From NCBI RefSeq assembly GCF_900115065.1, contig NZ_FOVE01000016.1, positions 1 through 64,000 on the forward strand: a stretch of DNA of 64,000 nucleotides, given 5' to 3'. The notes beneath the pieces were generated by a model that saw nothing but the letters and a program-made list of their open reading frames with translations, had not been told where the DNA came from and did not search any database. Source of the stretch: Formivibrio citricus (GTDB lineage: Bacteria; Pseudomonadota; Gammaproteobacteria; Burkholderiales; Chitinibacteraceae). Position 1 is the stretch's first letter, and the number at the start of each line of letters is the position of its first letter. Shown in pieces: positions 2,446-18,219 of this stretch. The position numbers were made by a program, and so were the translations under genes.

Positions 2446-5400
2446 TCACACCCCATACAACACAAACGGAGCCCAGTAGGCGGGGTTATCGAGGCCATCC
2501 TGGCTGTTGATGAACTCCCGCTTCACCGCATTCAAGGCTTTGATCTGGTCTTCGCCGTTCTTCAGACGGGCAAAGAACCGGCGCATGAATTCGGAAGTAG
2601 CCTCATCATCCACCTGCCACAGCGTCAACACCGTATTCACATTGCCCGCCACATACAGCGCAAACGGCAAGCCCATCACGCCTTCTCCCTGAATGCTCTT
2701 GCCCACCCCGGTCTCGCAAGCCGAGAGCACCACCAGATCGGACTTCAGTGAATACCCCGGCCATTCGGCAGCGGTAACATAGCCATCGGCCTGCGGTGTT
2801 ACCGCCTTCTGCCCGAGTACCACCGAACTCAAAGCCGGCACCTCGGTAGACAGATAACCATGGGTCGAGAACAGCAGATACCGGTAATCCGCCAGCTTGC
2901 CGGCACGGTTCAGGCTCTGTAGATTGAGTTCGGTGGCCTGATCCGCCAGATACAGATCGGTCTGGTTAGCACCAAAGGTTTTACGCACACCTTCCAACTC
3001 TGCCACCGTACCGGGCAAGGGAATCCAGCGGGTGCTTCGCAATGCCGCATACCCCTGACGAACCGCCTCGCTGTTACCTGAGCGCAATCCGCGGTGGATC
3101 TGCTCGGCCATTTTGCCCGCATCGGTGTTTGCTTGAAGGGCGGGGGTCGCCTGATTGACGGGGGCGGCCCCGAAATCTGGATTCCCCATCCCGAATACAG
3201 TCTTGGCGCGTGCCAGATGGCGGTATTCATCCGCCCGTTGTCGCAAGAGTGCATAGATCGACAAAGACTGCGCCAGGCTCACATCATGCTGTTTCAAGAC
3301 CGGCTCACCGGCAAAGCGCAGCGTATCGAACGGCAACAAAGCCAAAGCCCCATCGGGCGAGATGATCCACTGCCGTTTACCGGCCAGCTTGTCTTGAATC
3401 GGCACCAGCAGTTGCTGGCCGAGCCAGTCTTGCAGCTCGGAGACATCCGAGATTTTCTTTGCCCCTTCCGGCAGGGCTTCAGCGGTTGAGACTAACGCAT
3501 ATTGGCCATTGGCCAACTTCACGGCACGCTGCCCCAATTTGGCCAAGCCAGCCAACCCCTCCGGTTGGGCAATGATGGCGCGATAGGTTGCTACGGCCTG
3601 ATTCAAACCGGCTGGATTACCCAGATCGTGATATGTGACCACACCATCCGAGCTCATGGTCAACGCCAGAATCTTGCCGCCGTTCTCCAAAAAGCTCACA
3701 AACAGCGCATCGGATGGCAACAGCTTGGCTGCTTCCGTGGCTTCCAGAATCGTTGGGGTGGTGAGTTGGGCGTATTTGGGGAATTGTTGCAGTAGCTTGC
3801 TATGCAATATCCCCAGATCGCGTTCGACTTGATCGCGTTCACCCAACAACGCCATGCGTTGGCTATCGTTATCTGCCTTGGCGACTTTGTCGTTCAATAT
3901 GGCTAACTGGCGTTGCAGGTTCTCTAACTGAACGGCATCGGCTTCGGGTAGTGCCAAGCGGCCAGCGCGGGCGGCGGTTTCTTCCAGCAGTGTGCGGGCC
4001 TTGCTCAACTCAAAGAGGTGAAATGCCTTCTCCGGTTGTTTCTGCTCACCTAGAATCTGGGCGTATTTCTTGTAACCGCTTACATACTGGGCAAACAGGT
4101 TCTGTTTGTTCTCCACGCCCAAGCCGGATTGGCTGCGGAGCTTTTCGATGATGGCGACGTAGCGTTCATAAAGTGGCAAGGCTAAATCCGGGTGGGCCAT
4201 TTCCCAGTGCAGGAGGGCAAGGTTTTTGGTCAAGGTTGCTGTGGAGGGGTGGTCTGGGCCTTGGGCTTTCTCGGCGATGGTTAGAGCGCGCTGATACAGC
4301 GGCAGGGCTTTGTCATTATTGCCCATGTCTGAGTACAACCCAGCTAGGTTGTTGAGGCTGGTGCCGGTATCGGGGTGGTCTGGGCCGAGAGATTTTTCAG
4401 CGATGGCGAGGGCGCGCTGATACAGCGGCAGGGCTTGGGCGTACTGGCCCATGTGGGAGTACAGCTGGGCGAGGTTATTGAGGCTAGTGCCGGTTCTGGG
4501 GTGGTCGGGGCCGAGGGTTTTTTTAGCGATGGCGTGGGCGCGTTGGTAGAGCGGCAGGGCTTGGGCGTACTGGCCCATGTTGTCATACAGCAAGGCGAGG
4601 TCGTTGAGGCTGGTGGCGGTTCTGGGGTGGTCCAGGCCTTGGGACTTTTCAGCGATGACGAGGGCGCGTTGGTAGAGCGGCAGGGCTTGGGCGTATTGGC
4701 CCATGGCTCGGTACAGCGCGGCGAGGTTGTTGAGGTGGGTGCCAGTATTTGGGTGGTCCGGGCCTTGGGACTTTTCAGCGATGACGAGGGCGCGTTGGTA
4801 GAGCGGCAGGGCTTGGGCGTACTGGCCCATAGCTCGGTACAGCTCGGCGAGGTTGTTGAGGTAGGTGCCGGTATTGGAGTGGTCGGGGCCGAGGGTTTTT
4901 TCAGCGATGGCGAGTGCGCGTTGGTAGAGCGGCAGGGCTTGGGCGTACTGGCCCATGTTGTCATACAGCAAGGCGAGGTTGTTGAGGCTGGTGGCGGTTC
5001 TGGGGTGGTCCGGGCCTTGGGACTTTTCAGCGATGACGAGGGCGCGTTGGTAGAGCGGCAGGGCTTGGGCATATTGGCCCATGGCTCGGTACAGCGCGGC
5101 GAGGTTGTTGATGCTGGTGGCGGTGCTGGGGTGCTCGGGAGCAAGGAAACGCTCCCGGATTGCGAGCTGTTCCCGGAGTACTTCCGCCGCAGCGGCATAT
5201 TTCCCAGCTTGTTCCAACTTTATGTATTGATCATACAGCTGTTGGGCCTTATCCCGAGCAGGATCGTAACTTTGCGCCATCCACAGCCTTGCCTTCCGGC
5301 TTTCTTCCACCTGCCAGCTCTTCTGGATAAATAAATCAAAATCTGCCAGCGGGCCTTCCTTGAGTTCTTTCTCCGACTCAATCAATCCCAGTGTTTCCCG

Positions 5401-5874
5401 ATACCAGCGATAGGCATTTTCCGTATCGCCACTGAGCAGGTAGGTGTGGCCGAGATTGACGGTATTTGCATAGTCTTTTTTCAGGCTGACCGAGCGCTCG
5501 CAAGCCGGCCGGGCTTCCAGTGGTTGTTGGGACTGGATTTGCCGCCAGCACAGTCCGTTCCATGCCGCGTGATCATCTGGCGCAAGCTCGATGCTGCGGC
5601 GATAGGCCGAGATCGCTTCTTTCAGACGGCCCGATTCCCCCAGAAAATTCCCTTTCCAACGGATCAGCTTGGCATCTTCAGGATGAATCTTGAGCAATAG
5701 CTCGACATGCCGCAGCGCCTGCGGCCAGTCCTTGGCATCCCACGCCTTGGAGACCGCGTCGCGAAGCGTTTTTTCGTCAGCAGGCAGGGGCGCCGTTTCG
5801 GCTCGAAGCACTGGGGCGGCAAAGCACAGCGCAACAGTCAGCGCCAGGCGGGCGAGACGGGTTTGCGGAGTCAT
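2446..5874 (-). CDS. Exported TPR-CHAT protease, paralogue 2
   Basis: A protein of 1142 residues if started at the ATG at 5874; a longer frame to 5982 exists, but 5874 has GAGAGGA upstream and begins a clear signal peptide (about 1-26, ending VLRA). Domains: signal peptide, generic TPRs (about 30-200), about eight 42-residue TPRs (about 250-600), a helical linker, and a C-terminal CHAT domain (caspase HetF associated with TPRs). The catalytic dyad is visible as His in FSTHG (about 1005) and Cys in LSACETG (about 1053), so it is probably an active cysteine protease. The export signal places it in the periplasm or envelope, unlike the cytoplasmic TPR-CHAT (Csx29) of type III-E CRISPR. It lies 103 bp upstream of paralogue 1. 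The substrate is unknown; the nearby membrane protein at 7865 is a speculative candidate. Confidence 0.9.
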   Translation of the reverse strand: MTPQTRLARLALTVALCFAAPVLRAETAPLPADEKTLRDAVSKAWDAKDWPQALRHVELLLKIHPEDAKLIRWKGNFLGESGRLKEAISAYRRSIELAPDDHAAWNGLCWRQIQSQQPLEARPACERSVSLKKDYANTVNLGHTYLLSGDTENAYRWYRETLGLIESEKELKEGPLADFDLFIQKSWQVEESRKARLWMAQSYDPARDKAQQLYDQYIKLEQAGKYAAAAEVLREQLAIRERFLAPEHPSTATSINNLAALYRAMGQYAQALPLYQRALVIAEKSQGPDHPRTATSLNNLALLYDNMGQYAQALPLYQRALAIAEKTLGPDHSNTGTYLNNLAELYRAMGQYAQALPLYQRALVIAEKSQGPDHPNTGTHLNNLAALYRAMGQYAQALPLYQRALVIAEKSQGLDHPRTATSLNDLALLYDNMGQYAQALPLYQRAHAIAKKTLGPDHPRTGTSLNNLAQLYSHMGQYAQALPLYQRALAIAEKSLGPDHPDTGTSLNNLAGLYSDMGNNDKALPLYQRALTIAEKAQGPDHPSTATLTKNLALLHWEMAHPDLALPLYERYVAIIEKLRSQSGLGVENKQNLFAQYVSGYKKYAQILGEQKQPEKAFHLFELSKARTLLEETAARAGRLALPEADAVQLENLQRQLAILNDKVAKADNDSQRMALLGERDQVERDLGILHSKLLQQFPKYAQLTTPTILEATEAAKLLPSDALFVSFLENGGKILALTMSSDGVVTYHDLGNPAGLNQAVATYRAIIAQPEGLAGLAKLGQRAVKLANGQYALVSTAEALPEGAKKISDVSELQDWLGQQLLVPIQDKLAGKRQWIISPDGALALLPFDTLRFAGEPVLKQHDVSLAQSLSIYALLRQRADEYRHLARAKTVFGMGNPDFGAAPVNQATPALQANTDAGKMAEQIHRGLRSGNSEAVRQGYAALRSTRWIPLPGTVAELEGVRKTFGANQTDLYLADQATELNLQSLNRAGKLADYRYLLFSTHGYLSTEVPALSSVVLGQKAVTPQADGYVTAAEWPGYSLKSDLVVLSACETGVGKSIQGEGVMGLPFALYVAGNVNTVLTLWQVDDEATSEFMRRFFARLKNGEDQIKALNAVKREFINSQDGLDNPAYWAPFVLYGV
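4195..5125 (-). repeat. 126-bp tandem repeat array encoding TPRs (paralogue 2)
   Basis: Near-identical 126-bp units (around 4323, 4449, 4575, 4701, 4827, 4953 and 5079) each encode one TPR. Units at 4575 and 4953 share the same variable helix (DNMGQYAQ), and 4701 and 5079 share another (RAMGQYAQ), giving a 378-bp higher-order period. This suggests recent unequal exchange. Confidence 0.85.
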
Positions 5875-5908
5875 GTTCGGTGTGTCCTCTCGTGTGGCAT
5901 ACCCTTTG

Positions 5909-5932
5909 GACGGCCAAAGCCGGGGTTTGTCA
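5909..5932 (-). promoter_or_regulatory. Putative ECF-type promoter (TGAC-N16-CGTC) of TPR-CHAT paralogue 2
   Basis: TGAC at 5932-5929 and CGTC at 5912-5909 on the minus strand are separated by 16 nt. CGTC ends 35 nt before the ATG at 5874. The flanks CCTGACAAA and CGTCCAA are also seen upstream of 9355 and, in part, of 2342. Confidence 0.5.
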
Positions 5933-5955
5933 GGGTGGTGTTGCGGGCGATGGTA

Positions 5956-5983
5956 TTGCTGCCGTTCAAGCCGTTGATACAAT
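5956..5983 (+). promoter_or_regulatory. Putative sigma-70 promoter of the ClsB-like gene
   Basis: TTGCTG at 5956-5961 and TACAAT at 5978-5983 are separated by 16 nt. Transcription would begin near 5990, which argues against start codons upstream of that point for the next gene. Confidence 0.4.
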
Positions 5984-6014
5984 GAGCTTCTTTCAGGTGC
6001 TGATGATAGCTGAA

Positions 6015-7202
6015 ATGATGAAGAAATCGGATTGTCCGGATGGTTCGGGTTTGTTTTTGCCGGGATATTGCATCTCGCTGCTTTGTAGCGGCGCGGAATA
6101 TTTCCCGGCGCTGATCGGGGCGATCAAGGCGGCGAAGCAGGAAATTTACTTGCAGACCTATATCTTTGCCGATGATGCCACCGGGCAGGCGGTTAGTGCG
6201 GCGCTTTGCGATGCTGCGCGCCGTGGGGTGAGTGTACGGGTGATGGTGGATGGTTTCGGGGGGGAGGACTTCCCGGAAAAAATCCGGCCGGCGCTGGTCG
6301 CTGAGGGTGTGGAGGTGCTGATCTTTCGGCCACGGCGGCGCTGGAGCTTGCCCGGCCGGTTCCATTTGCGACGCTTGCATCGCAAGCTGTGCGTGGTGGA
6401 TCGGTCCGTTGCATTCGCAGGCGGTATCAATGTGATTGATGACCGAAATACGCCTCAGCCCATGGGCCCCCGGTTTGATTTTGCCGTTGAGGTCAAAGGG
6501 CCGGTTGTGGCGGGGATTCATGCTTCCATGATCAGGCTGTGGCGGGTGGTTTCTTTGACCCAGTTGCGGCGGCGAGGCGTATTCCCCTGCGGGGAGTTCC
6601 CCTCTGGCGGGATGGCGGGTTCGCAGCGCGTGGGTTTTCTGTTGCGAGACAATCTGCGGTATCGCCATGCCATTGAGCAGGCGTATCTGGCGGTCATTGC
6701 GAATGCGCGCGAGGAGATCATCCTCTCCAATGCGTATTTCCTTCCGGGCCGGCGGCTGATGAGGGCGATTCTGGATGCGGCACGGCGCGGGGTGCGCGTT
6801 TCGCTGTTGCTGCAAGGGCGTATCGAATACGGATTTCAGCATTATGCAACTCAGAGTTATTACGCGACGTTGCTTGAGGCAGGGGTGCGGATTTTTGAGT
6901 ATCAGGAAAGTTTCTTGCATGCCAAAGTTGCGGTGATCGATGGCCAGTGGGCGACAGTGGGCTCCAGCAATGTCGACCCTTTCAGCCTGCTGTTGGCTAG
7001 AGAGGCCAATGTGGTTGTGGATGATGCGGCGTTTGCGGCCAGTTTGCGTGCGGAGCTGATGGAGGCCATTGAGCAGCGGTCCAGAGAAATCGCCCGTGAA
7101 CACTGGCGCCACAGCAGTGCCGGGGCCGGTTTCTTGCAACGCATCAGCTATGCGTTGTTGCGCGCGTGTGTTGTGTTCGTTTGCCCGGCAGAGCCTTATT
7201 GA
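6015..7202 (+). CDS. clsB: Phospholipase D-family cardiolipin synthase, ClsB-like
   Basis: A protein of 395 residues with two HKD motifs typical of the PLD superfamily: LHRKLCVVD in the first half and LHAKVAVID near the C-terminus, the latter followed by a GSSN segment. Order and length fit the ClsB group of cardiolipin synthases, which transfer phosphatidyl groups at the inner membrane and lack the N-terminal transmembrane pair of ClsA. Upstream in-frame starts at 5982 and 6003 exist; 6015 is chosen because it matches the N-terminus of the family and lies downstream of a plausible promoter. The gene is divergent from the TPR-CHAT pair and leads into the sigma-factor gene 29 bp later, so it may be the first gene of that operon. 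An exported phospholipase role is less likely because no signal peptide is seen. Confidence 0.85.
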   Translation: MMKKSDCPDGSGLFLPGYCISLLCSGAEYFPALIGAIKAAKQEIYLQTYIFADDATGQAVSAALCDAARRGVSVRVMVDGFGGEDFPEKIRPALVAEGVEVLIFRPRRRWSLPGRFHLRRLHRKLCVVDRSVAFAGGINVIDDRNTPQPMGPRFDFAVEVKGPVVAGIHASMIRLWRVVSLTQLRRRGVFPCGEFPSGGMAGSQRVGFLLRDNLRYRHAIEQAYLAVIANAREEIILSNAYFLPGRRLMRAILDAARRGVRVSLLLQGRIEYGFQHYATQSYYATLLEAGVRIFEYQESFLHAKVAVIDGQWATVGSSNVDPFSLLLAREANVVVDDAAFAASLRAELMEAIEQRSREIAREHWRHSSAGAGFLQRISYALLRACVVFVCPAEPY

Positions 7203-7231
7203 GTTCGGGCGACCTTATTCGAAAGAACCAG

Positions 7232-7861
7232 ATGAAAATGGATGTTCCCCGTCTAAGTCATGAGGCGCCGGATCGGGAGGCGTTGCGGGCTTTGTCCGGT
7301 GCTCCCAAAGACCGGAATGCCGCCATGCGGCTGCTGTTTGACCGGCATGCCGTACGTTTGATGCGCCATCTGCGTTTCAGGTTTTCCTTGCCGGAGAGCA
7401 TCGCCGAGGAGATTACGGCGCAAGCTTTTTTGCGAGCGTATGAGAAGGCTGACGATTTTCGCGGGGATTGCGAGGTGGCTTCGTGGCTGGTGCAGATTGC
7501 CCGGAATCTGGCTGTGGACCATTTGCGGCGGGAGGGGCGCATGGAATCGCTGGAGGATGAGGATTTCGCTGGCAATGCCGATATTTTTTGCGAGCTGGTT
7601 CCAGCCAGTCATGAGCCTCATGCCCTTCTGGAAAACAAGCAGGTGGCCCATTGTGTTCGCGAGCGGTTTACCGCTTTCCGTCTGCGCCATCCGGAGGCCG
7701 CGACGGCGCTTTGGGAACGTCACGTCAATGAGGTTTCGCCTCAGGAAATTGCGCCCATGCTGGGGCGTACCTACAGAGCCACTTGCCAGTTTCTGAGCGA
7801 GTGGGGCAAAAAACTGCGGCAGTTCGTTGCGCCGTGCTACGAGTTGCTGAAAGGGGAGTAG
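7232..7861 (+). CDS. ECF-like RNA polymerase sigma factor
   Basis: A protein of 209 residues. Region 2 is clear (FRGDCEVASWLVQIARNLA, then VDHLRR), matching the -10 recognition helices of sigma-70 region 2. Region 4 is present but divergent (VSPQEIAPMLGRTYRATCQF near 165-185), an HTH expected to read the -35 box. Size and lack of regions 1 and 3 fit an ECF factor. GAAAGAACC precedes the chosen ATG; a second ATG lies two codons later. The next gene starts 3 bp after the stop and encodes a single-pass membrane protein, the usual place for an anti-sigma. I propose that it reads the TGAY-N16-CGTC boxes upstream of the TPR-CHAT and TPR genes; no copy of that box is seen upstream of this gene itself. 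Confidence 0.85.
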   Translation: MKMDVPRLSHEAPDREALRALSGAPKDRNAAMRLLFDRHAVRLMRHLRFRFSLPESIAEEITAQAFLRAYEKADDFRGDCEVASWLVQIARNLAVDHLRREGRMESLEDEDFAGNADIFCELVPASHEPHALLENKQVAHCVRERFTAFRLRHPEAATALWERHVNEVSPQEIAPMLGRTYRATCQFLSEWGKKLRQFVAPCYELLKGE

Positions 7862-7864
7862 GCC

Positions 7865-8389
7865 ATGACTTTGCCTTCGCGGGATGATGTGCCGCACAAA
7901 GACGAACCGCTTGATCCCTTGCTTTTGCAGACCCTGAAAGAGCATGGCGAATCCTTGACGCCGGATGGCATGTCTCGTGGCCGTATCTGGCAGCGCATCG
8001 ATGCCAGGCTGAATACCCCTGCGCAAGGGTTTGACTGGCGCAACGGGTGGCATGCATTGATGGCGACCCCCAAGCGCTGGGGAACCGCCCTGGCTTTTAT
8101 TCTGGTGGCGGCCATTGGCATGCCGCTTCTGATTTCGCGGCAACCGTCGCCGGATTGGGGTGCGGTGGAATTCAAGGGCGTCAGGGTTGTCGCCATGACG
8201 CAAAACATGCGTACGGATTTTGAGGAGGCGCTGCGCCAAATGAACGTTCCGTTCGAGATGATCCAGCAGGATGGGCGTTCTGCGCTTCTGATTCGTGCTG
8301 TCGATGTCCAGAGGCTGGATATGCCATTCAGGCAGAAGTGGGGGTTGCCCGAGGCCGAAACGGGTACGCTTCAGGTGGTTTTTGAATGA
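7865..8389 (+). CDS. Single-pass membrane protein, possible anti-sigma factor
   Basis: A protein of 174 residues. The N-terminal 75 or so residues are hydrophilic, followed by one transmembrane helix (about 76-94, TALAFILVAAIGMPLLI) and an extracytoplasmic domain of about 80 residues. No zinc-binding HxxxCxxC anti-sigma motif is present, so the assignment rests on topology and position: 3 bp after the sigma gene and overlapping the caspase gene by the 4-bp ATGA. Such a protein would hold the sigma factor at the membrane and release it when its outer part is cleaved. Two exported proteases of the locus could do this; that link is inference. I do not recognise the family. Confidence 0.6.
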   Translation: MTLPSRDDVPHKDEPLDPLLLQTLKEHGESLTPDGMSRGRIWQRIDARLNTPAQGFDWRNGWHALMATPKRWGTALAFILVAAIGMPLLISRQPSPDWGAVEFKGVRVVAMTQNMRTDFEEALRQMNVPFEMIQQDGRSALLIRAVDVQRLDMPFRQKWGLPEAETGTLQVVFE

Positions 8390-9300
8390 AGCGAAAAATT
8401 CTTGGTTTGCTGGGTGGGTGGCTCGTTTCGGCCTTTTGTCTGGCGGAAAACCATGCCTTGCTGATCGGGGTTCGGCAGGTTGCTTCTGCTTATCCTTCCC
8501 CGATACTGGAAAGTATTTCCAATGATCTTGTTTTGGCCAAACAGATGGCAAGCCGGCTGGGGGTTCCTGAGACCCATATCCGGGTCTTGTCCGATGCCGG
8601 TCAAGGGCGGTTGCCGACACGTTCAAACGTAACCGAATCAATGCGAACTTTGGCCGCGCAGGTAAGCCCCGGCGATTTTGTGTTGCTTTATCTGAGCGGG
8701 CATGGCGTGCAACAGCCCAGCTTGATCCCGCAGGGGGGGGATCCGCTTGATGAGATTTTTTTACTGGCCGATAGCCAGCGCTGGGCCGCCGGCAAAGGTA
8801 TTGCCAATGCCCTGAGCGACAAGGAAATCCGCAACTGGCTGGCTGCGCTGGATAGCAAACAGGTCAAGGTTTGGTTGGTGGCCGATACTTGCCACGCCAG
8901 CGGCTTGATGCGGGGGGCGCAAGATTGGCTGGACGATGAAATTGCCATCAGCGGTTTCAAGGGCTTGCGCTCTAGCTGGCTGGGCATGAAAACCTGGCTG
9001 CAAAAAGGGAAACCCGGCACAGGGTCACAGAATGCATCCCGCCTGAAAACAGGTGCATTGCCGAATGTGGCTGCGTTTATGGCGGCCGATGAAAATAGTA
9101 GCGCGCTTGAGATCGAGTTAAAGCGGGATGGTCGCAAAGTGGGTCTGTTTACCTGGGCGCTGGCTCAGGCGCTCAAGCAGATGCATGGGCCAATTCCCCC
9201 CGAAAAATTGGCACAAGCCACATTGGCGCTGTATCGCCGCTACCCTCAGTGGGTGGCTCGGCCGGTATTCGAGGCGGGTGAACTCAGTGGTGCGCCCTGA
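8386..9300 (+). CDS. Exported caspase-family (C14) cysteine protease
   Basis: A protein of 304 residues. A signal peptide (about 1-20, ending CLA before ENHALLIGV) is followed by a caspase p20-like fold starting HALLIGV. The dyad is His106 in LYLSGHGVQ and Cys169 in VADTCHASG, with the usual acidic and small residues around them, so it should be catalytic. Metacaspase-like proteins are usually cytosolic; this one appears to be exported. It is translationally coupled to the preceding membrane protein (ATGA overlap), which suggests that the two work together. Target sequence and activator are unknown; the TPR protein downstream and the two TPR-CHAT proteases are obvious partner candidates. Confidence 0.88.
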   Translation: MKRKILGLLGGWLVSAFCLAENHALLIGVRQVASAYPSPILESISNDLVLAKQMASRLGVPETHIRVLSDAGQGRLPTRSNVTESMRTLAAQVSPGDFVLLYLSGHGVQQPSLIPQGGDPLDEIFLLADSQRWAAGKGIANALSDKEIRNWLAALDSKQVKVWLVADTCHASGLMRGAQDWLDDEIAISGFKGLRSSWLGMKTWLQKGKPGTGSQNASRLKTGALPNVAAFMAADENSSALEIELKRDGRKVGLFTWALAQALKQMHGPIPPEKLAQATLALYRRYPQWVARPVFEAGELSGAP

Positions 9301-9321
9301 CAAAATGGGCGCTGGGTCGTC
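9298..9321 (+). promoter_or_regulatory. Putative ECF-type promoter (TGAC-N16-CGTC) of the TPR gene
   Basis: TGAC at 9298-9301 overlaps the caspase stop codon and CGTC lies at 9318-9321, again 16 nt apart and 33 nt before the ATG at 9355. The string CCTGACAAA is identical to that upstream of 5874 although the genes are not otherwise related, which makes chance or shared ancestry less likely. Confidence 0.5.
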
Positions 9322-9354
9322 GAATGGGTAGATTTGTCCAAAAAGAGGGTGCCC

Positions 9355-10791
9355 ATGAAAACAAAGTTACAAGTATTGAGTTTGGTTCTTGGCCTGCATC
9401 CGCTCGCCCCAGCTTTCGCAGCCCCCAACAACGCCCCGCATTACTTTGAGGGCGAGCTGCGGATTGAGCAATCGGTTGGCGGAAAAAATTGCCAGCAACT
9501 GAATGGCAAAATCACGGAAGCTCAGGTTTCCTGGCAAGACCCCGGGCACGGGCAAATTCAGGGCTGGATTGTTTTTGCGAGCGGCGCGCCGGGCAAGCTG
9601 GAAGGGGCAACCCCTGCCAAGCTCACAATTACCACCAACCACCACGATGCCCAGCTTAATACCCCCATGGTGCTCTCGCTGGATATTGCCGATGGCAAGG
9701 CGACTGGGGTGCTGCAAGAAACACCGGCCAAACCGGGTTTTAGCGAAACCATGTGTTACTGGCAGCAGGCCAAACTCACGCTCACCGAAAAAAACACCGA
9801 TGCCGCCAAGCGGATGCGCGAACATGCAGCTTGGTACAAAGCCTATGCCCATAAAAGCCGTGGTGAAAACCATGCCCGCTACGCGCAATTTGCCGAAGCG
9901 GCGGCGGCATATGACCAAGCCTTTGCCGAGGTGGAGGGCGTACTGCCCGAAACGCGCACGGACCTCTATGACTTGCTCTTCAGCGCCGCCCGTTACCATG
10001 CCGAGGCCAAGAATTTTGCGCTGGCGGCGCAAAGCTTTCAGCAGTTGATGGATATTGGCCTGCGGCAATCAGAGAAAGGCGCAGAGAATCCAGACCTGTA
10101 TCCTAGCTGGCTGCGCCTTGCCACCTATCTGCACCTTGCCGGCCGTACCACGGAAGCCATCCCTGTTATTGAGCGCACCGCCCGGCTGGAGAGCCAGGCG
10201 GAAGAAGTCAGTCTGGAAGAGCGCCTGCTGCGCCTGCGGTTGCAAGGCAACATCTATATCACTGCCAAAATGTTCGACAAGGCGCAAACCAGCCTGCGGG
10301 AAGAAATTACGCTCGCCAGCGCCAAAGCTGGCCCCGATAGCCTGCTCGCGTATGAAGCCCGTGTGCAGTGGGCGCGCGGATTAAAGGCGATGAATGACCA
10401 CGCCCGTTTTGAAACCACCCTCGAACCGCTGACCAAGGAAATCACCACCCGCTTTGGCGAAGCCCACGAACTGGCACGCAACAGCAATGCCTTGCTGGGC
10501 TGGCATTACCTCAACACCGGACGCATGGAAAAATCCCGCCCCTGGCTGGAAAGCGCCTTCCGTGGTCACCGCGCACTGACGGGCAATGCCCTAACTACCA
10601 TCAAAGCCAACGAATCCGCCCGAAACATCCTCGGTGCGCTGCTTGAAATCTACATCAAGCAAGGCATCGTACCGGCAGACTATCTGGACCGGTTCGCCGC
10701 CAATCAGGGCATTCTGGATGATCTACCCTATAACGAAGGACTAAAAGCTAACTTGAACTTGCCGGCGTTCAAGATTGGGTCGGGGGAGTAG
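9355..10791 (+). CDS. Exported TPR-repeat protein with N-terminal beta-rich domain
   Basis: A protein of 478 residues. The ATG at 9355 has AGAGGGTG at a good distance and begins a signal peptide (about 1-24, ending AFA); a TTG 21 bp upstream is in frame but has no such signal. Residues about 25-150 form a beta-rich domain that I do not recognise. From about 165 to 440 helix pairs spaced like TPRs follow (for example FAEAAAAYDQAF and FDKAQTSLREEI). It probably acts in the periplasm as a scaffold or sensor. It sits between the caspase and the stator/rotor-like genes and has its own candidate ECF-type promoter, so it may be a main output of the local sigma factor. Confidence 0.75.
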   Translation: MKTKLQVLSLVLGLHPLAPAFAAPNNAPHYFEGELRIEQSVGGKNCQQLNGKITEAQVSWQDPGHGQIQGWIVFASGAPGKLEGATPAKLTITTNHHDAQLNTPMVLSLDIADGKATGVLQETPAKPGFSETMCYWQQAKLTLTEKNTDAAKRMREHAAWYKAYAHKSRGENHARYAQFAEAAAAYDQAFAEVEGVLPETRTDLYDLLFSAARYHAEAKNFALAAQSFQQLMDIGLRQSEKGAENPDLYPSWLRLATYLHLAGRTTEAIPVIERTARLESQAEEVSLEERLLRLRLQGNIYITAKMFDKAQTSLREEITLASAKAGPDSLLAYEARVQWARGLKAMNDHARFETTLEPLTKEITTRFGEAHELARNSNALLGWHYLNTGRMEKSRPWLESAFRGHRALTGNALTTIKANESARNILGALLEIYIKQGIVPADYLDRFAANQGILDDLPYNEGLKANLNLPAFKIGSGE

Positions 10792-10819
10792 AGCAAGCGT
10801 AGCCCGCGCACCCCTTGTA

Positions 10820-10848
10820 GGGTTTGCAAACCGTCCGGTTTGCGAACG
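10820..10848 (+). other. Inverted repeat in the leader of the FliG-C-like gene
   Basis: The 167-bp gap between 10791 and 10959 contains TTTGCAAACCG and CGGTTTGCGAA as near-perfect inverted arms. It could be a hairpin or an operator; no T-run follows, so it is not a typical terminator. A weak TGAT-N16-TGTC also occurs at 10854-10877. Confidence 0.35.
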
Positions 10849-10958
10849 CGGGCTGATCTTCAAGGTGCTTCGCTGTCTGCTTGAAACGATGATCGGGGCG
10901 CAAGTCTTGGGCTTTCACAACCTGCCGCCGAGAAGTGCAATTTTTAGAAAGAAACACT

Positions 10959-11471
10959 ATGACTGATACCGTTACCCTGCAACTTTCCAACCCGGCATTC
11001 AGCTTGGAAAAAATTCCCGACGGCACCCGTTACACGCTGGTCTTTACCCGAGATGGCATCGCTGCCCGCATCACGTTGCCGGAAAGCGGCATGCAGGCTT
11101 TTCAGAGCCAGTTGCAGTTACTGGTGAAATCGCCGGAAATCCGCTTGACCAACGCCGAGGTGGAAGCCAGTTATCGCCAGACTGCCCAGCCCTTGCACTA
11201 TCTGGATGACTACGAGTGGCAATGCCTGTTGCGCGAGTTGCAGTGCGATGAACTGCTGGCCGCGCTGTGGTATCTGAAAGACGAATCCATCGCCCAGGCG
11301 GTATTCCGCAATCTGTCGCAGCGCGCTGCAGAAATGTTGCTGGAAGACTTGCAGGGCTACAGCCGGCGCGGTGATCCGGACAAACAACCGGAAAACATCG
11401 TCCAAAAAGGCCGCGATGCCTTACAAGGTGTGTTGCAGACGCTGGCGCGTTTGCAGGGGGAAGATGATTGA
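10959..11471 (+). CDS. FliG C-terminal-domain-like protein A (non-flagellar context)
   Basis: A protein of 170 residues. Residues 1-70 form a small beta-rich domain of unknown family. Residues about 80-168 read like the C-terminal torque domain of flagellar rotor protein FliG: LDDYEWQCLLRELQCDELL, then FRNLSQRAAEMLLEDLQ (116-132), ending in TLARLQ. In E. coli FliG the equivalent helix carries R281, D288 and D289; here R122, E129 and D130 fall at those places. K264 seems replaced by Trp. No FliG N or middle domains and no flagellar genes are nearby. The next gene encodes a MotA-loop-like protein, and a second FliG-C-like protein closes the cluster. The start at 10959 is chosen over a TTG-type start 24 bp upstream. 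Homology is judged by eye from remembered sequences. Confidence 0.75.
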   Translation: MTDTVTLQLSNPAFSLEKIPDGTRYTLVFTRDGIAARITLPESGMQAFQSQLQLLVKSPEIRLTNAEVEASYRQTAQPLHYLDDYEWQCLLRELQCDELLAALWYLKDESIAQAVFRNLSQRAAEMLLEDLQGYSRRGDPDKQPENIVQKGRDALQGVLQTLARLQGEDD

Positions 11472-11499
11472 TCGTTGCCATTGACGCAAAGGATGTCCC

Positions 11500-12000
11500 G
11501 TGATTCCACAAGACCCGCAACAAAAACTGCTTGCCGCACTTTATCTGCTTGCCCGCTGCGTAAAGCGCGAAGGGCTGCTTTCCATTGAGGGCGATGTGTT
11601 CGATCCAGCAAGTTCGCCCTTGTTCAAATGGCTGGAAATTGCGATTTCTCCCGGTCTGGAGTTGGTGGCCGATGCGCTGCGGCTGATTGTGAGCTACGCG
11701 CCGAACGAGCCTGATCTGGCGTTCTATCTGGATACGGTGCGCCGACATAACGAACTGACCGCCGAAGACCAACGCCTGCTGGAATTGGCCAGTGTGTTCC
11801 TGAGGGCACAAGCCCGCGAGCTTCCCCCGCAAGCCTGTGCCGAATTTGCCCGCCAAACGCTCCCGCTCAAAGACCGGCCAGATGGCGAGGCATTGCAAAG
11901 TGATTTGCGTGCGCTGGAGCGGGAATTCACGAACAGTTGCGAGCAACACGAGGGCGATATGGGGAGCCGTATTACCGCCTTGTTTGCAAAACTCCAGTAA
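11500..12000 (+). CDS. Soluble MotA-like protein (cytoplasmic loop and tail, no membrane helices)
   Basis: A protein of 166 residues starting at GTG 11500, with AAAGGA 6 nt upstream. Residues 9-66 closely follow the cytoplasmic loop of flagellar MotA (LLAALYLLARCVKREGLLSI, then SSPLF and VADALRLIV). Residues about 106-140 follow the MotA C-terminal tail (LPPQACAEFARQTLP, then DRPDGEAL). The four MotA transmembrane helices are absent: instead of TM3 and TM4 there is a linker of roughly 25-30 mostly polar residues. MotA residues that contact FliG (R90, E98 in E. coli) correspond to the basic K22/R23 and to E30. It lies between a FliG-C-like gene and a small two-TM protein. A soluble stator-loop mimic that binds the neighbouring FliG-C-like protein is the simplest reading; this is inference. 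Confidence 0.75.
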   Translation: MIPQDPQQKLLAALYLLARCVKREGLLSIEGDVFDPASSPLFKWLEIAISPGLELVADALRLIVSYAPNEPDLAFYLDTVRRHNELTAEDQRLLELASVFLRAQARELPPQACAEFARQTLPLKDRPDGEALQSDLRALEREFTNSCEQHEGDMGSRITALFAKLQ

Positions 12001-12012
12001 GTGGCGCCGATC

Positions 12013-12252
12013 ATGAACGCAGAGAAAAACCAGTTTGATTGGGCACGCCTGATAAAGCGCCTGTTCGGTGCCGTGTGCGTGGCAATCGGCCTTGCCCTGT
12101 TGAGCAACCTGCTGCCGGCCATCGGCGATATTCTTGGCAACTCATCCACCGCCCGTGATTACCGCGCCATTTGGGCGTTTGGTCTGTGCGGATTGCTGTT
12201 GCTGGCCTTTGGCGGGGTGATGCTCTACAACCCGGATTTGCTCAAGGAATGA
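12013..12252 (+). CDS. Small two-TM membrane protein
   Basis: A protein of 79 residues from the ATG at 12013 (an in-frame GTG directly after the previous stop at 12001 would add four residues). Two hydrophobic helices, about 15-37 and 52-72, are separated by a short polar loop, with a short N-terminal cytoplasmic segment. It starts 12 bp after the MotA-like gene and overlaps the next gene by the ATGA at 12249, so it is almost certainly co-transcribed. It may anchor the soluble stator/rotor-like proteins to the membrane; no family is recognised. Confidence 0.65.
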   Translation: MNAEKNQFDWARLIKRLFGAVCVAIGLALLSNLLPAIGDILGNSSTARDYRAIWAFGLCGLLLLAFGGVMLYNPDLLKE

Positions 12253-12812
12253 CAATGGCCTGGATACGGCAGCAACAGGGATTGGGGGCGGTTTGCTTGT
12301 TGCTGGCTTCATGGGTAACGCTGGCCGCTGATCCACTCAAGCCTGAAGAGCGGGCGGCTTATGCCAAGTTTCAGGCAAGCCTGCCACCTGCTGGTCAGTA
12401 CCGCATCGAATCAAACTGGAATATGGGTGGGGATAACTTCTTGCCCGGCCCGGTGAGCCTGCGCTGTTTGGCTCAGGAAAACCTGCGCGAGCTGGCTGAC
12501 GAAACACTGGGGCTCGTTGGCAAAGCGCAAGAGCACCTTGTGTGCGATCTCCCTTTGCGGAAGATCACCGCGCAAAGCATCATCCATGAAAAGCACTGCA
12601 AAGCGCGCCCCGGGTATGGCATCCAGAATATCGCCATCCTGCGGGATCAACTGGAAATACATGCAATGCAGACACTGCGCTTGAGTACGGAGCAAACGCT
12701 CAAGGCGCGCAGTCTGGATGGCGCCCCTCAGCCTGATTTGTATCGCAAAGAAATTATCACGGCTACCCGGATGGGCAATTGCCCACCAGAGAACCCATAT
12801 GCAGAGCGGTGA
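12249..12812 (+). CDS. Exported protein, DUF3617-like
   Basis: A protein of 187 residues starting at the ATG that overlaps the previous stop (ATGA at 12249-12252). A signal peptide spans about 1-26 (ending LAA before DPLKPEE). The mature part begins with a YRIESNWNM strand, has cysteines at CLAQ, VCDL and KHC, and ends with TATRMGNCP, a layout that recalls DUF3617 periplasmic proteins (pattern GLWE... CL... C... RRIGDC). The resemblance is weak, and function is unknown even for that family. Its place among the FliG-C-like and MotA-like genes links it to the same system. Confidence 0.5.
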   Translation: MTMAWIRQQQGLGAVCLLLASWVTLAADPLKPEERAAYAKFQASLPPAGQYRIESNWNMGGDNFLPGPVSLRCLAQENLRELADETLGLVGKAQEHLVCDLPLRKITAQSIIHEKHCKARPGYGIQNIAILRDQLEIHAMQTLRLSTEQTLKARSLDGAPQPDLYRKEIITATRMGNCPPENPYAER

Positions 12813-12906: not shown

Positions 12907-13482
12907 ATGAATTCACCAGAACCCCTGAGAATCAGTGCGATCGACGTCAAGGGAATCCAGCACGAAGGAACATCCGTGTTCCTGAAAATCGCCGGAAGAT
13001 GTGATGGTGTCGATTGCGAAATGAATGTCGGAATGTTGACGCACGTTTTCGAAACGCTGATCAATCAGGGGCAGAGCCTGATGGCTGCCATGCATTCCAG
13101 CCCCACTTGCGCCGAAGAAAATGCAGCCTTGCGCAAAGCAGTCTGGCCGCTGCTGCGATTGACTGAGCCGGATTGGCGAATGCTTTTATGGGAGATGAAT
13201 CTCGATTGTTTGGTCGACTTCCTCTGGTTTATGAATGATCCGGAATTGACCGTGAAGGCTACGCGCAATATCAGTTCAAGCGTCCTGACCTTAAACCCGG
13301 AAAAACGTGCCGCCATGATGAGAGAAATGATCGAGGAAAAATTCGGCGCCCACGATCCGGACAACGTCTCTGCCAACCTGATGCAGGCCGCTCGCCAGAG
13401 TGTGCATGAGATGATGAAAACGCTGATTCGCCTGGAAGACGAAGGGCGCATCCCGGCGGCGTATCCGCAGGTGGGCATATAA
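12907..13482 (+). CDS. FliG C-terminal-domain-like protein B (divergent paralogue)
   Basis: A protein of 191 residues. The ATG at 12907 is preceded by AAAAAGGA; an in-frame ATG at 12880 is possible. Layout matches protein A: an N-terminal beta-rich domain (about 1-65), then a FliG-C-like helical part (about 78-185) with LTEPDWRMLLWEMNLDCLVD, PEKRAAMMREMIEE and a C-terminal MMKTLIRLEDEGRI that closely resembles the FliG ending (RRLEEEGEI type). The torque-helix charges are only partly kept: R134 aligns with R281, but the acidic pair is altered. The two FliG-C-like proteins may form a heteromer or bind different partners. Two terminator-like hairpins follow. Confidence 0.65.
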   Translation: MNSPEPLRISAIDVKGIQHEGTSVFLKIAGRCDGVDCEMNVGMLTHVFETLINQGQSLMAAMHSSPTCAEENAALRKAVWPLLRLTEPDWRMLLWEMNLDCLVDFLWFMNDPELTVKATRNISSSVLTLNPEKRAAMMREMIEEKFGAHDPDNVSANLMQAARQSVHEMMKTLIRLEDEGRIPAAYPQVGI

Positions 13483-15474: not shown

Positions 15475-16650
15475 TCAATGCAGATGTCTTGGTTGCTCTT
15501 TGGCCTCTTCCGGCATTTCGGTGTGCAGTAATTCACCTTCAATATTCGGGTAAAGCGGCGCGCCGCAATCGTCGCAGTAATCCAGCGGAAATGCGTGGTC
15601 GTGGGCGATGATTTCGGTTACGCCGCATTCACGCAACACGGTTTCGATCTCGCCCACGCAATCGGTCTGTTCGTCCTCGCCGTCCATCAGCGGCCATACC
15701 ACACCATGAACAACCTGTTCGCCACCGCGCAGCATGAAACCGACGCGGTATTCTTCCAGGCGGTGTCCATGGCAGGGCGCGATGATTGCCGTGACTTGGC
15801 GCGGCTCGATGTTCAGCGAGAGCTGCAGAAACGAAACCGTGGCGCGGACCGAATAGGCACGAGAGGCGCGGTCGGCATCGCGCCAGGCGGCGAAATAGGA
15901 GAGCGGCATCAAGGGGTCGAATGCGCAGCCGGCAAACAGCGGCTGGATGGCATTGCCGCCCTGTTTTTTCCATTGCGACTCGGCCTCGCTGCGCTCACCG
16001 TCCTTTTCCTGCCAGCGGAAAAACGGGCTGCCATGCGGAACGGCGACAACACCCAGCACGTAGCGCGTATCGGAAAGGAATGCCTTGGTTTCCGGCAATT
16101 GCTTGGGGTCCAGATCCAGCGTGCTGTTCTTGGCGGCAAGTTCGCTCAACACGGAACAGAGTCTGGCCGTGTTGCTGTATCCCTGCGGTAACTGGTCGGG
16201 GCTGAACAGAAGGTTGGCCAGCGACAGTTTCGCGTCCTGGGCCAGTACATGGGCCGAGAGGTGGACTCGCAGGTTTTGCATCAACTCACGCCCCAGCTGG
16301 CCGGAGGGGATCGTGTAACGGGACCAGGAAAGGATCGGTACGGCAATCAGCAGCGCATCCCACTCCTTCCCATCAATTTGCAGTGAGCGCGATTCGCTGC
16401 AGGCTTCGACGATGTCGGCCAGTTCGTTCCACGCCAGCGTGTCGGTCTGCGCCAGCGTATCGAGCGCGGTGTTGAGGGTTTCTTCCTCGTCATCGGCCAG
16501 AATTCCGTTGACCTGCCGGATCAGCGCTTCCTGCCAGAAACGGTCTTCCAGCAAGGTGCAGGAACTCGATAAGCCGGATGCCAGCCGAATCAGTTCTTCA
16601 GCTTCTGCGGAAAGACGGCTGCGGCGAGTGGCGCGTGGGCGCTTGAGCAT
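15475..16650 (-). CDS. DUF2863 family protein
   Basis: A protein of 391 residues with the features of DUF2863, a family known mainly from betaproteobacteria: a basic N-terminus (RPRATRRSRLS), a conserved helical first half and a C-terminal part with HDHAFPLDYCDDCGAPLYP, a CxxC pair that may bind zinc. No membrane segment is seen. Function unknown. It is convergent with the phasin gene. Confidence 0.75.
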   Translation of the reverse strand: MLKRPRATRRSRLSAEAEELIRLASGLSSSCTLLEDRFWQEALIRQVNGILADDEEETLNTALDTLAQTDTLAWNELADIVEACSESRSLQIDGKEWDALLIAVPILSWSRYTIPSGQLGRELMQNLRVHLSAHVLAQDAKLSLANLLFSPDQLPQGYSNTARLCSVLSELAAKNSTLDLDPKQLPETKAFLSDTRYVLGVVAVPHGSPFFRWQEKDGERSEAESQWKKQGGNAIQPLFAGCAFDPLMPLSYFAAWRDADRASRAYSVRATVSFLQLSLNIEPRQVTAIIAPCHGHRLEEYRVGFMLRGGEQVVHGVVWPLMDGEDEQTDCVGEIETVLRECGVTEIIAHDHAFPLDYCDDCGAPLYPNIEGELLHTEMPEEAKEQPRHLH

Positions 16651-16719: not shown

Positions 16720-17583
16720 TCATGGCTTCCGTCCGTAAACGTACCCCGGTTCGTCTCCGGAGGCTTTGAGCGCAATCCAGTCCAGCCAGCGGGTCGGCAA
16801 AAGTCGCTTCAGATACCAGAAGACGCGAGTGGGTATTGTCACGCGGTAACGTGCTGCGGGATACCGGGCGTTCAGGCAACGGGATGCGACATCGGCGACG
16901 GCGCTTGCCGGCAGGGTGAACGGTGCAGCCGGACCGGCCTTGGCCAGTCTCGCCGCCATGGCCTGGTAGGCCAGGCGATGCACGCTGGATTGCGCATCGA
17001 TCCAGCGTGCAAACTGGGCTTGGGCATTGGCGCGAAAGCGGCTGGCAATCGGGCCAGGTTCGATCAGGGAAACATGAATGTCTGTGCCGATCAATTCCTG
17101 GCGCAGCGTGTCGGCAAAACCTTCCAGCGCATACTTGCTGGCATTGTAGGCGCCGCGGTAGGGCATGGCCGCGAAACCGAGAATCGAGCTGTTGATCAAA
17201 ATGCGACCGTGCCCCTGTCGGCGTATGGCTGGCAGCAGGGCGTTGATGAGTTCGATCGTGCCAAAGACATTGGTTTCGAACTGAAAACGCATGGCATCCC
17301 GGCTGAGATCCTCAACCGCACCAGGCACCCCCAGCCCGGCATTGCAGAACACGGCATCGAGCTGTCCTTCGCAGCGGGCAAGGGCTTCCGCCGCACAGGC
17401 CTGAACGGCTGCGGAATCTGTCTGGTCCAGCAGCAGCGTCTCGATGCCCTCGCCCTGGATTGCATCTTCCAGGCGGCGCACCGTGGCCAGCACGCGCCAA
17501 CCTTGCCGGGCCAGCGTTTGAGCCGTGGCAAGACCGATGCCGCTGGAGCAGCCGGTAACAAGAATGGTGCGTGAGGCTGTCAT
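16720..17583 (-). CDS. Short-chain dehydrogenase/reductase
   Basis: A protein of 287 residues of the classical SDR type: the NAD(P)-binding TGCSSGIG at 10-17, NAG at 81-83, a Ser near 132-133, and the catalytic Tyr146-x3-Lys150 (YNASK). The C-terminal extension (YLKRLLPTRWLDW) is typical of SDRs acting on lipids or bulky substrates. The substrate cannot be told. Its start overlaps the end of the GNAT gene by 4 bp (TCAT at 17580-17583), so the two are co-transcribed. Confidence 0.9.
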   Translation of the reverse strand: MTASRTILVTGCSSGIGLATAQTLARQGWRVLATVRRLEDAIQGEGIETLLLDQTDSAAVQACAAEALARCEGQLDAVFCNAGLGVPGAVEDLSRDAMRFQFETNVFGTIELINALLPAIRRQGHGRILINSSILGFAAMPYRGAYNASKYALEGFADTLRQELIGTDIHVSLIEPGPIASRFRANAQAQFARWIDAQSSVHRLAYQAMAARLAKAGPAAPFTLPASAVADVASRCLNARYPAARYRVTIPTRVFWYLKRLLPTRWLDWIALKASGDEPGYVYGRKP

Positions 17584-18116
17584 GTACGGGATTCCTTGGG
17601 GTCGAGCAGCATTTCCAGATAATCGGCGCCAGCGCCGTAGGCTGCAAGTTTTTTGCGCAGGGCGGGATTCTTGTCTTCTCTTGGGCTAAAACCATGGCTG
17701 GCCCAGAAAGCGTGAGCCCTTTCTACCGCAATCAGCTTGGCCTTTTTGAACTGCTGGTGGCGAGCCCAGTCCAGCGCATGATTCACCATGGCTTGCCCGA
17801 GTCCTTGTCGGCGGGCGATGGGGTGCAATGCCAGGTCATGGATAAACAAGGCCGTGCATGGCTGCGGGATTTCGGTCAGGGGGCGATTCAGGGCCGGCGG
17901 TAGCGTATCCGGCCAGGGATGGGCGAACAGGTAGGCCACGGGTTTGCCGGCTTGTTCGGCAAACCAGCAACTTGCCGGAGAAAGTTGCAGCTTGGCCTGC
18001 AGGGTTTCACGGCTTTCGATGAGTTCCGCAGGGTAGGCGGATTGCTGGATAGCCATGACACCGCGCATGTCGTCGGGTTGCATGGGCCGTATGTGCCAGT
18101 CGGGAGCGTTGTGCAT
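17580..18116 (-). CDS. GNAT-family N-acetyltransferase
   Basis: A protein of 178 residues if begun at the ATG at 18116; a longer start at 18173 is possible but lacks similarity. The acetyl-CoA-binding motif is seen as LALHPIARRQGLGQAM (pattern R/Q-x-x-G-x-G/A), after the beta-strand ALFIHDLAL, and the C-terminal AHAFWASHGF is typical of GNATs. The acceptor substrate is unknown. First gene of the GNAT-SDR pair; divergent from the YkgJ-like gene. Confidence 0.85.
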   Translation of the reverse strand: MHNAPDWHIRPMQPDDMRGVMAIQQSAYPAELIESRETLQAKLQLSPASCWFAEQAGKPVAYLFAHPWPDTLPPALNRPLTEIPQPCTALFIHDLALHPIARRQGLGQAMVNHALDWARHQQFKKAKLIAVERAHAFWASHGFSPREDKNPALRKKLAAYGAGADYLEMLLDPKESRT

Positions 18117-18219
18117 GCGTTGGGCGGAGGATCGCGAGGGCGTTATTTTCCCTGTTGCGGGAGGAACACTCAAGGAAAGCGATCTTCATGAGACAATTTG
18201 CTTCTCTTTGGGAGAAACC

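Follow-up and report, generated by a model that had tools for sequence, protein, structure and literature searches.

Stator-rotor contacts in the flagellar motor join MotA R90 to FliG D289 and MotA E98 to FliG R281 (PMC7564593; PMC12505986), and in cryo-EM work two neighbouring MotA subunits hold FliG-C between them (PMC11302681). The N-terminal and middle domains of FliG serve in binding FliF and FliM. Both MotA and FliG are also bound by YcgR, a brake of the motor (PMC10140304). Outside of the flagellum, a MotA relative occurs as ZorA in the Zorya system, where ZorA and ZorB form a membrane motor accompanied by ZorC, ZorD and ZorE. In the open-access literature we found no publication pairing a MotA-like with a FliG-like protein nor, among the results considered, one describing a MotA that is soluble in nature; the word 'soluble' is absent from a paper on MotAB evolution. 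To our knowledge, neither a natural soluble MotA nor the placing of a MotA gene beside a FliG-C gene away from flagellar loci has been described. The two genes considered here belong to these known families, and it is their arrangement that is new to us.

The genes lie in a window of 64,000 nucleotides from the flagellated bacterium Formivibrio citricus (positions 1 to 64,000 of contig NZ_FOVE01000016.1). A preliminary description of this DNA had reported stator-like and rotor-like proteins, both soluble, encoded side by side outside any flagellar locus. All of this is borne out: both open reading frames are in place and their homology is upheld, hydropathy predicts no membrane helix in either product, and the genome's own full-length fliG and motA-motB are found on other contigs. 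The features of the locus are the following.

7166 to 10791, forward strand: upstream group encoding a Sigma70_r2 sigma factor, a 174-aa protein, a caspase-like peptidase C14 and a TPR protein (Pfam, PADLOC, NCBIfam)
10792 to 10958, no strand: gap of 167 bp from the upstream group to gene A, with an imperfect palindrome at about 10822-10853 (pattern search)
10959 to 11471, forward strand: gene A, a 170-aa stand-alone FliG_C protein (open reading frame and Pfam FliG_C)
11500 to 12000, forward strand: gene B, a 166-aa soluble MotA cytoplasmic domain with loop and C-tail joined (TIGR03818, hhalign, hydropathy)
12013 to 12252, forward strand: gene D, 79 aa with two predicted membrane helices, 12 bp past the stop of B (hydropathy)
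12249 to 12812, forward strand: gene E, with a signal-peptide-like N-terminus and one N-terminal hydrophobic peak, its start overlapping the stop of D (sequence, hydropathy)
12907 to 13482, forward strand: gene C, a 191-aa diverged relative of A (own-genome search with A)

Gene A encodes a FliG-C relative with an N-terminal region of its own. The protein matches Pfam FliG_C at 34.1 bits against a cut-off of 23.3 (E = 3.6e-8), and this is the sole FliG domain that Pfam finds in it; the FliG N-terminal and middle domains are absent, and its 170 residues compare with 335 in the genome's own FliG, with which hhalign aligns it at E = 4.9e-13. Solved FliG chains are matched by its sequence (best 3e-5), while its match to the FliG family TIGR00207 is weak (30.6 bits, under the cut-off of 226.7). 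A strand and helix region of ~70 aa at the N-terminus is followed by FliG-C over about residues 79-149, with a predicted torque helix at 121-135. A thus shares with the FliG C-terminal domain (PF01706) both its sequence and a torque helix bearing the R281/D288/D289 equivalents, and differs from FliG in the two missing domains, in its N-terminal region and in one residue more. The AF2 model of A is of middling confidence (pLDDT 73), and its top fold matches are FliG chains, with weak E-values of 2.8e-3 to 6.8e-2. The start codon is ATG, with an alternative GTG possible 24 bp further upstream.

Gene B encodes the cytoplasmic part of a MotA, fused where the membrane segments are missing. This is concluded from an in-order alignment of B (hhalign, MotA profile; E = 1.3e-11, 36% identity over 129 columns) that covers the cytoplasmic loop and C-tail of the genome's own MotA and is interrupted by a single 72-residue gap corresponding to TM3, TM4 and their loop; from the start of B past TM2, which leaves its N-terminus without TM1-TM2; and from hydropathy, in which B has no peak over 1.6 and no predicted helix where own MotA gives four peaks. 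The TIGR03818 MotA1 model matches B in two stretches at 8.2e-11 (41.6 bits, under the full-length cut-off of 303.8), and a profile of 29 full-length MotAs finds both parts in order, at 34.5 and 8.0 bits; none of 2000 shuffled versions of B was reported against that profile at E<=10. Within the genome, the closest homologue of B is its own MotA (44% over 70 aa). B has no match in Pfam and no PDB sequence match, and the fold-search matches of its single-sequence model (pLDDT 53) are meaningless. In the MotA tree, the branch of B is very long (10 changes per column), too long to place B among MotAs. Its GTG start codon is preceded by AAAGGA 6 nt upstream.

Compared with MotA of the TIGR03818 type (beta/gammaproteobacterial), B thus retains the loop and C-tail sequence, a positive charge at R90 and the glutamate at 98, but has 166 aa rather than 285 and lacks TM1-TM4, making ion conduction by B impossible. 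No motB stands beside it, the next gene being D; the genome's own motB adjoins the full-length motA elsewhere. Like ZorA, B is a MotA relative outside the flagellum, but ZorA is membrane-embedded and carries a Zorya-specific cytoplasmic domain, whereas B has no transmembrane helices. Kinship of B with ZorA, ExbB or TolQ was rejected, with no Pfam MotA_ExbB or PADLOC match and MotA1 as the best match, and none of A, B, C, D and E has a PADLOC match to Zorya. We likewise rejected an artefact, given intact frames, neighbour-like codon make-up and profile matches from independent libraries; GC by codon position resembles that of neighbouring genes, and the genes therefore look like ordinary coding sequence. 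A phage or plasmid origin was also rejected: B is unmatched in phages and plasmids, A matches only full FliG in plasmids, and scans of viral contigs were empty for B and the A family alike. B does match PHROGs phrog_21194 (295 positions, function not known) at 0.0014 over the MotA loop, and it seems that this phage collection includes a family with a MotA-like protein.

The torque helix of A carries R122, E129 and D130, which align with FliG R281, D288 and D289, as the preliminary description had proposed. Its companion claim, that B keeps the matching charges, also stands, with one conservative change: K22 of B aligns with MotA R90 (Arg to Lys) and E30 with MotA E98. Both contact pairs, B K22 with A D130 and B E30 with A R122, therefore keep their charge. 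This retention is weak evidence by itself because conservation in both families is highest where these sites lie, and the kept charges may reflect the fold only, the torque helix being the best-kept part of FliG. Relatives of A in genomes without B keep the R281 and D289 equivalents too, and the identity of the torque helix (13/20 in A, 8-10/20 in those relatives) differs by too little to count.

What these proteins do is a separate matter, and here we lean, tentatively and at something short of an even chance, toward A and B being a soluble stator-rotor mimic, a clutch or decoy aimed at the cell's own motor. With the MotA membrane helices lost, the loop and C-tail of B would form one cytosolic domain, and A and B would still use the stator-rotor surface, with the cell's motor as their putative target. 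Rotation would be slowed or disengaged by B sitting on FliG-C in the C-ring, by A sitting on the MotA of the stators, or by both; A and B would also titrate each other. The targets of such a mimic exist, since full-length fliG and motAB are present, and every genome in which A-like proteins were found likewise has full-length FliG and MotA. A precedent is YcgR, which is soluble, binds both MotA and FliG and brakes rotation, the effect proposed here for A and B. It is a PilZ c-di-GMP receptor with no homology to FliG-C or MotA. Against a motor mimic stand the distance of the genes from flagellar genes and a Trp in A at the place of what we take to be FliG K264, and B is a single sequence, from which selection cannot be measured. 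Without transmembrane helices, B may also fail to supply the two adjacent subunits needed for FliG-C docking.

The neighbourhood bears on a second explanation, raised as a possibility in the preliminary description, which we consider doubtful: that A and B form a dedicated pair in the cytosol whose contact now works as a local, flagellum-independent binding switch, together with D, E, C or the sigma factor and caspase genes. The matching charges on the two proteins, the 28 bp between their genes (both on the forward strand) and their location away from fliG and motAB would all suit such a pair. So would the operon-like closeness of D and E behind them: the spacings A-B, B-D and D-E are 28, 12 and -4 bp, from which co-transcription of A-B-D-E is suggested. 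D has no family match above a curated cut-off, and E has none in libraries including Pfam, PADLOC and NCBIfam; D as the missing membrane part of MotA was rejected (blastp with own MotA, E = 0.88). The sigma factor and caspase upstream would fit such a switch too, but A and B are linked to these genes by adjacency only, and the 167 bp with its palindrome separates the two groups. By reading of the sequence, moreover, the upstream caspase and TPR proteins have signal-peptide-like N-termini and look exported, whereas A and B look cytosolic. The 174-aa protein of the upstream group has one hydrophobic stretch.

A wider stretch, 2446-10791, holds a TPR-CHAT protease-like gene on the reverse strand, opposite genes for a phospholipase-D-like protein, the sigma factor, the caspase-like peptidase and the TPR protein. 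Several of its products have signal-peptide-like N-termini, and it is possibly a separate protease system.

The preliminary description had proposed co-occurrence of the two genes across genomes as a check, and on this point it fared less well: within the limits of our searches, the pair is in no other genome. B was searched for in 43 genomes of the family (E<=1e-6), 399 of the order (E<=2e-8; a sample only) and 340 of the class (E<=5e-8), with thresholds chosen to exclude full-length MotA and FliG, so that diverged soluble relatives could be missed. Besides B itself, the family yielded full-length MotA alone, and the order and class yielded only frames of MotA length. A search of the order with A found A-like open frames, 168-230 codons long, in G120, G076 and G199, three of the four genomes of another family; there too MotA is present only at full length, with no B. 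At strict cut-offs, no A-like protein was found among 369 genomes of the class or 359 of the phylum. Congeners yielded neither A, B nor C, and share synteny nearby only in downstream genes (phasin, 15475-16650, 17580-18173). The A-B pair is seen in one species only, and with A-like proteins occurring without B, no conserved pairing emerges from these searches. Both the absence of the pair elsewhere and the persistence of A-like proteins without B weigh against the dedicated switch.

The genome also holds a second FliG-C-like gene that the preliminary description missed. C matches A at E = 1.7e-9 with 31% identity in an own-genome search, and a tree groups it with A (support 92/85), though by itself it has no Pfam FliG_C match. 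It keeps the R281 equivalent, has lost the acidic pair and carries an 8-aa insertion ahead of the torque helix.

Loss of that pair in C, the occurrence of A-like proteins alone at a metabolic locus of another family, the failure to find A, B and C in congeners and the very long branch of B would all fit a reading in which A and B make no contact at all, with A and C belonging to a stand-alone FliG-C family of other function and B being a MotA remnant, kept for another reason or slowly decaying. We hold this to be unlikely. The deletions in B fit MotA topology, its frame is open and its codon make-up native. Random adjacency of B to a FliG-C gene is also unlikely: were B placed at random, the chance would be ~0.001, a rough figure that assumes 3000 genes.

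The A-like proteins of G120, G076 and G199 (L036, L037 and L038), from the same order, apparently form a small undescribed family. They are 161-aa stand-alone FliG-C proteins encoded 3' of dapF-like and DHH-phosphoesterase-like genes. They resemble A in length (~160 aa), in an alignable N-terminal region and in an LW[FY][ML] motif, and differ in having Gly at position 288 and dapF-like, DHH-like and peptidyl-prolyl-isomerase-like neighbours, and in lacking B.

Taken at the level of sequence, the locus suggests that a pair of free-floating proteins, encoded away from flagellar genes, carries a copy of the motor's gear contact. We consider it an even call whether this is a natural membrane-free stator-rotor pair, in which the torque interface has been recombined as a soluble binding module that regulates the motor or serves a new pathway. 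If B folds without a membrane, it would provide a natural, expressible MotA torque surface, otherwise studied within a membrane complex, would allow MotA-FliG binding to be measured directly, and would show parts of the flagellar motor to be separable and reusable as soluble regulators.

A FliG-C reading frame of a different kind was seen in another genome of the F. citricus family, assembled as a single contig (L060, 1539-2545 of G006 C1). Its fliG is split: a 260-aa open reading frame for the FliG N-terminal and middle domains goes out of frame, after which FliG-C is encoded by a 125-aa open reading frame in a different frame, reflecting a frameshift or a sequencing error.
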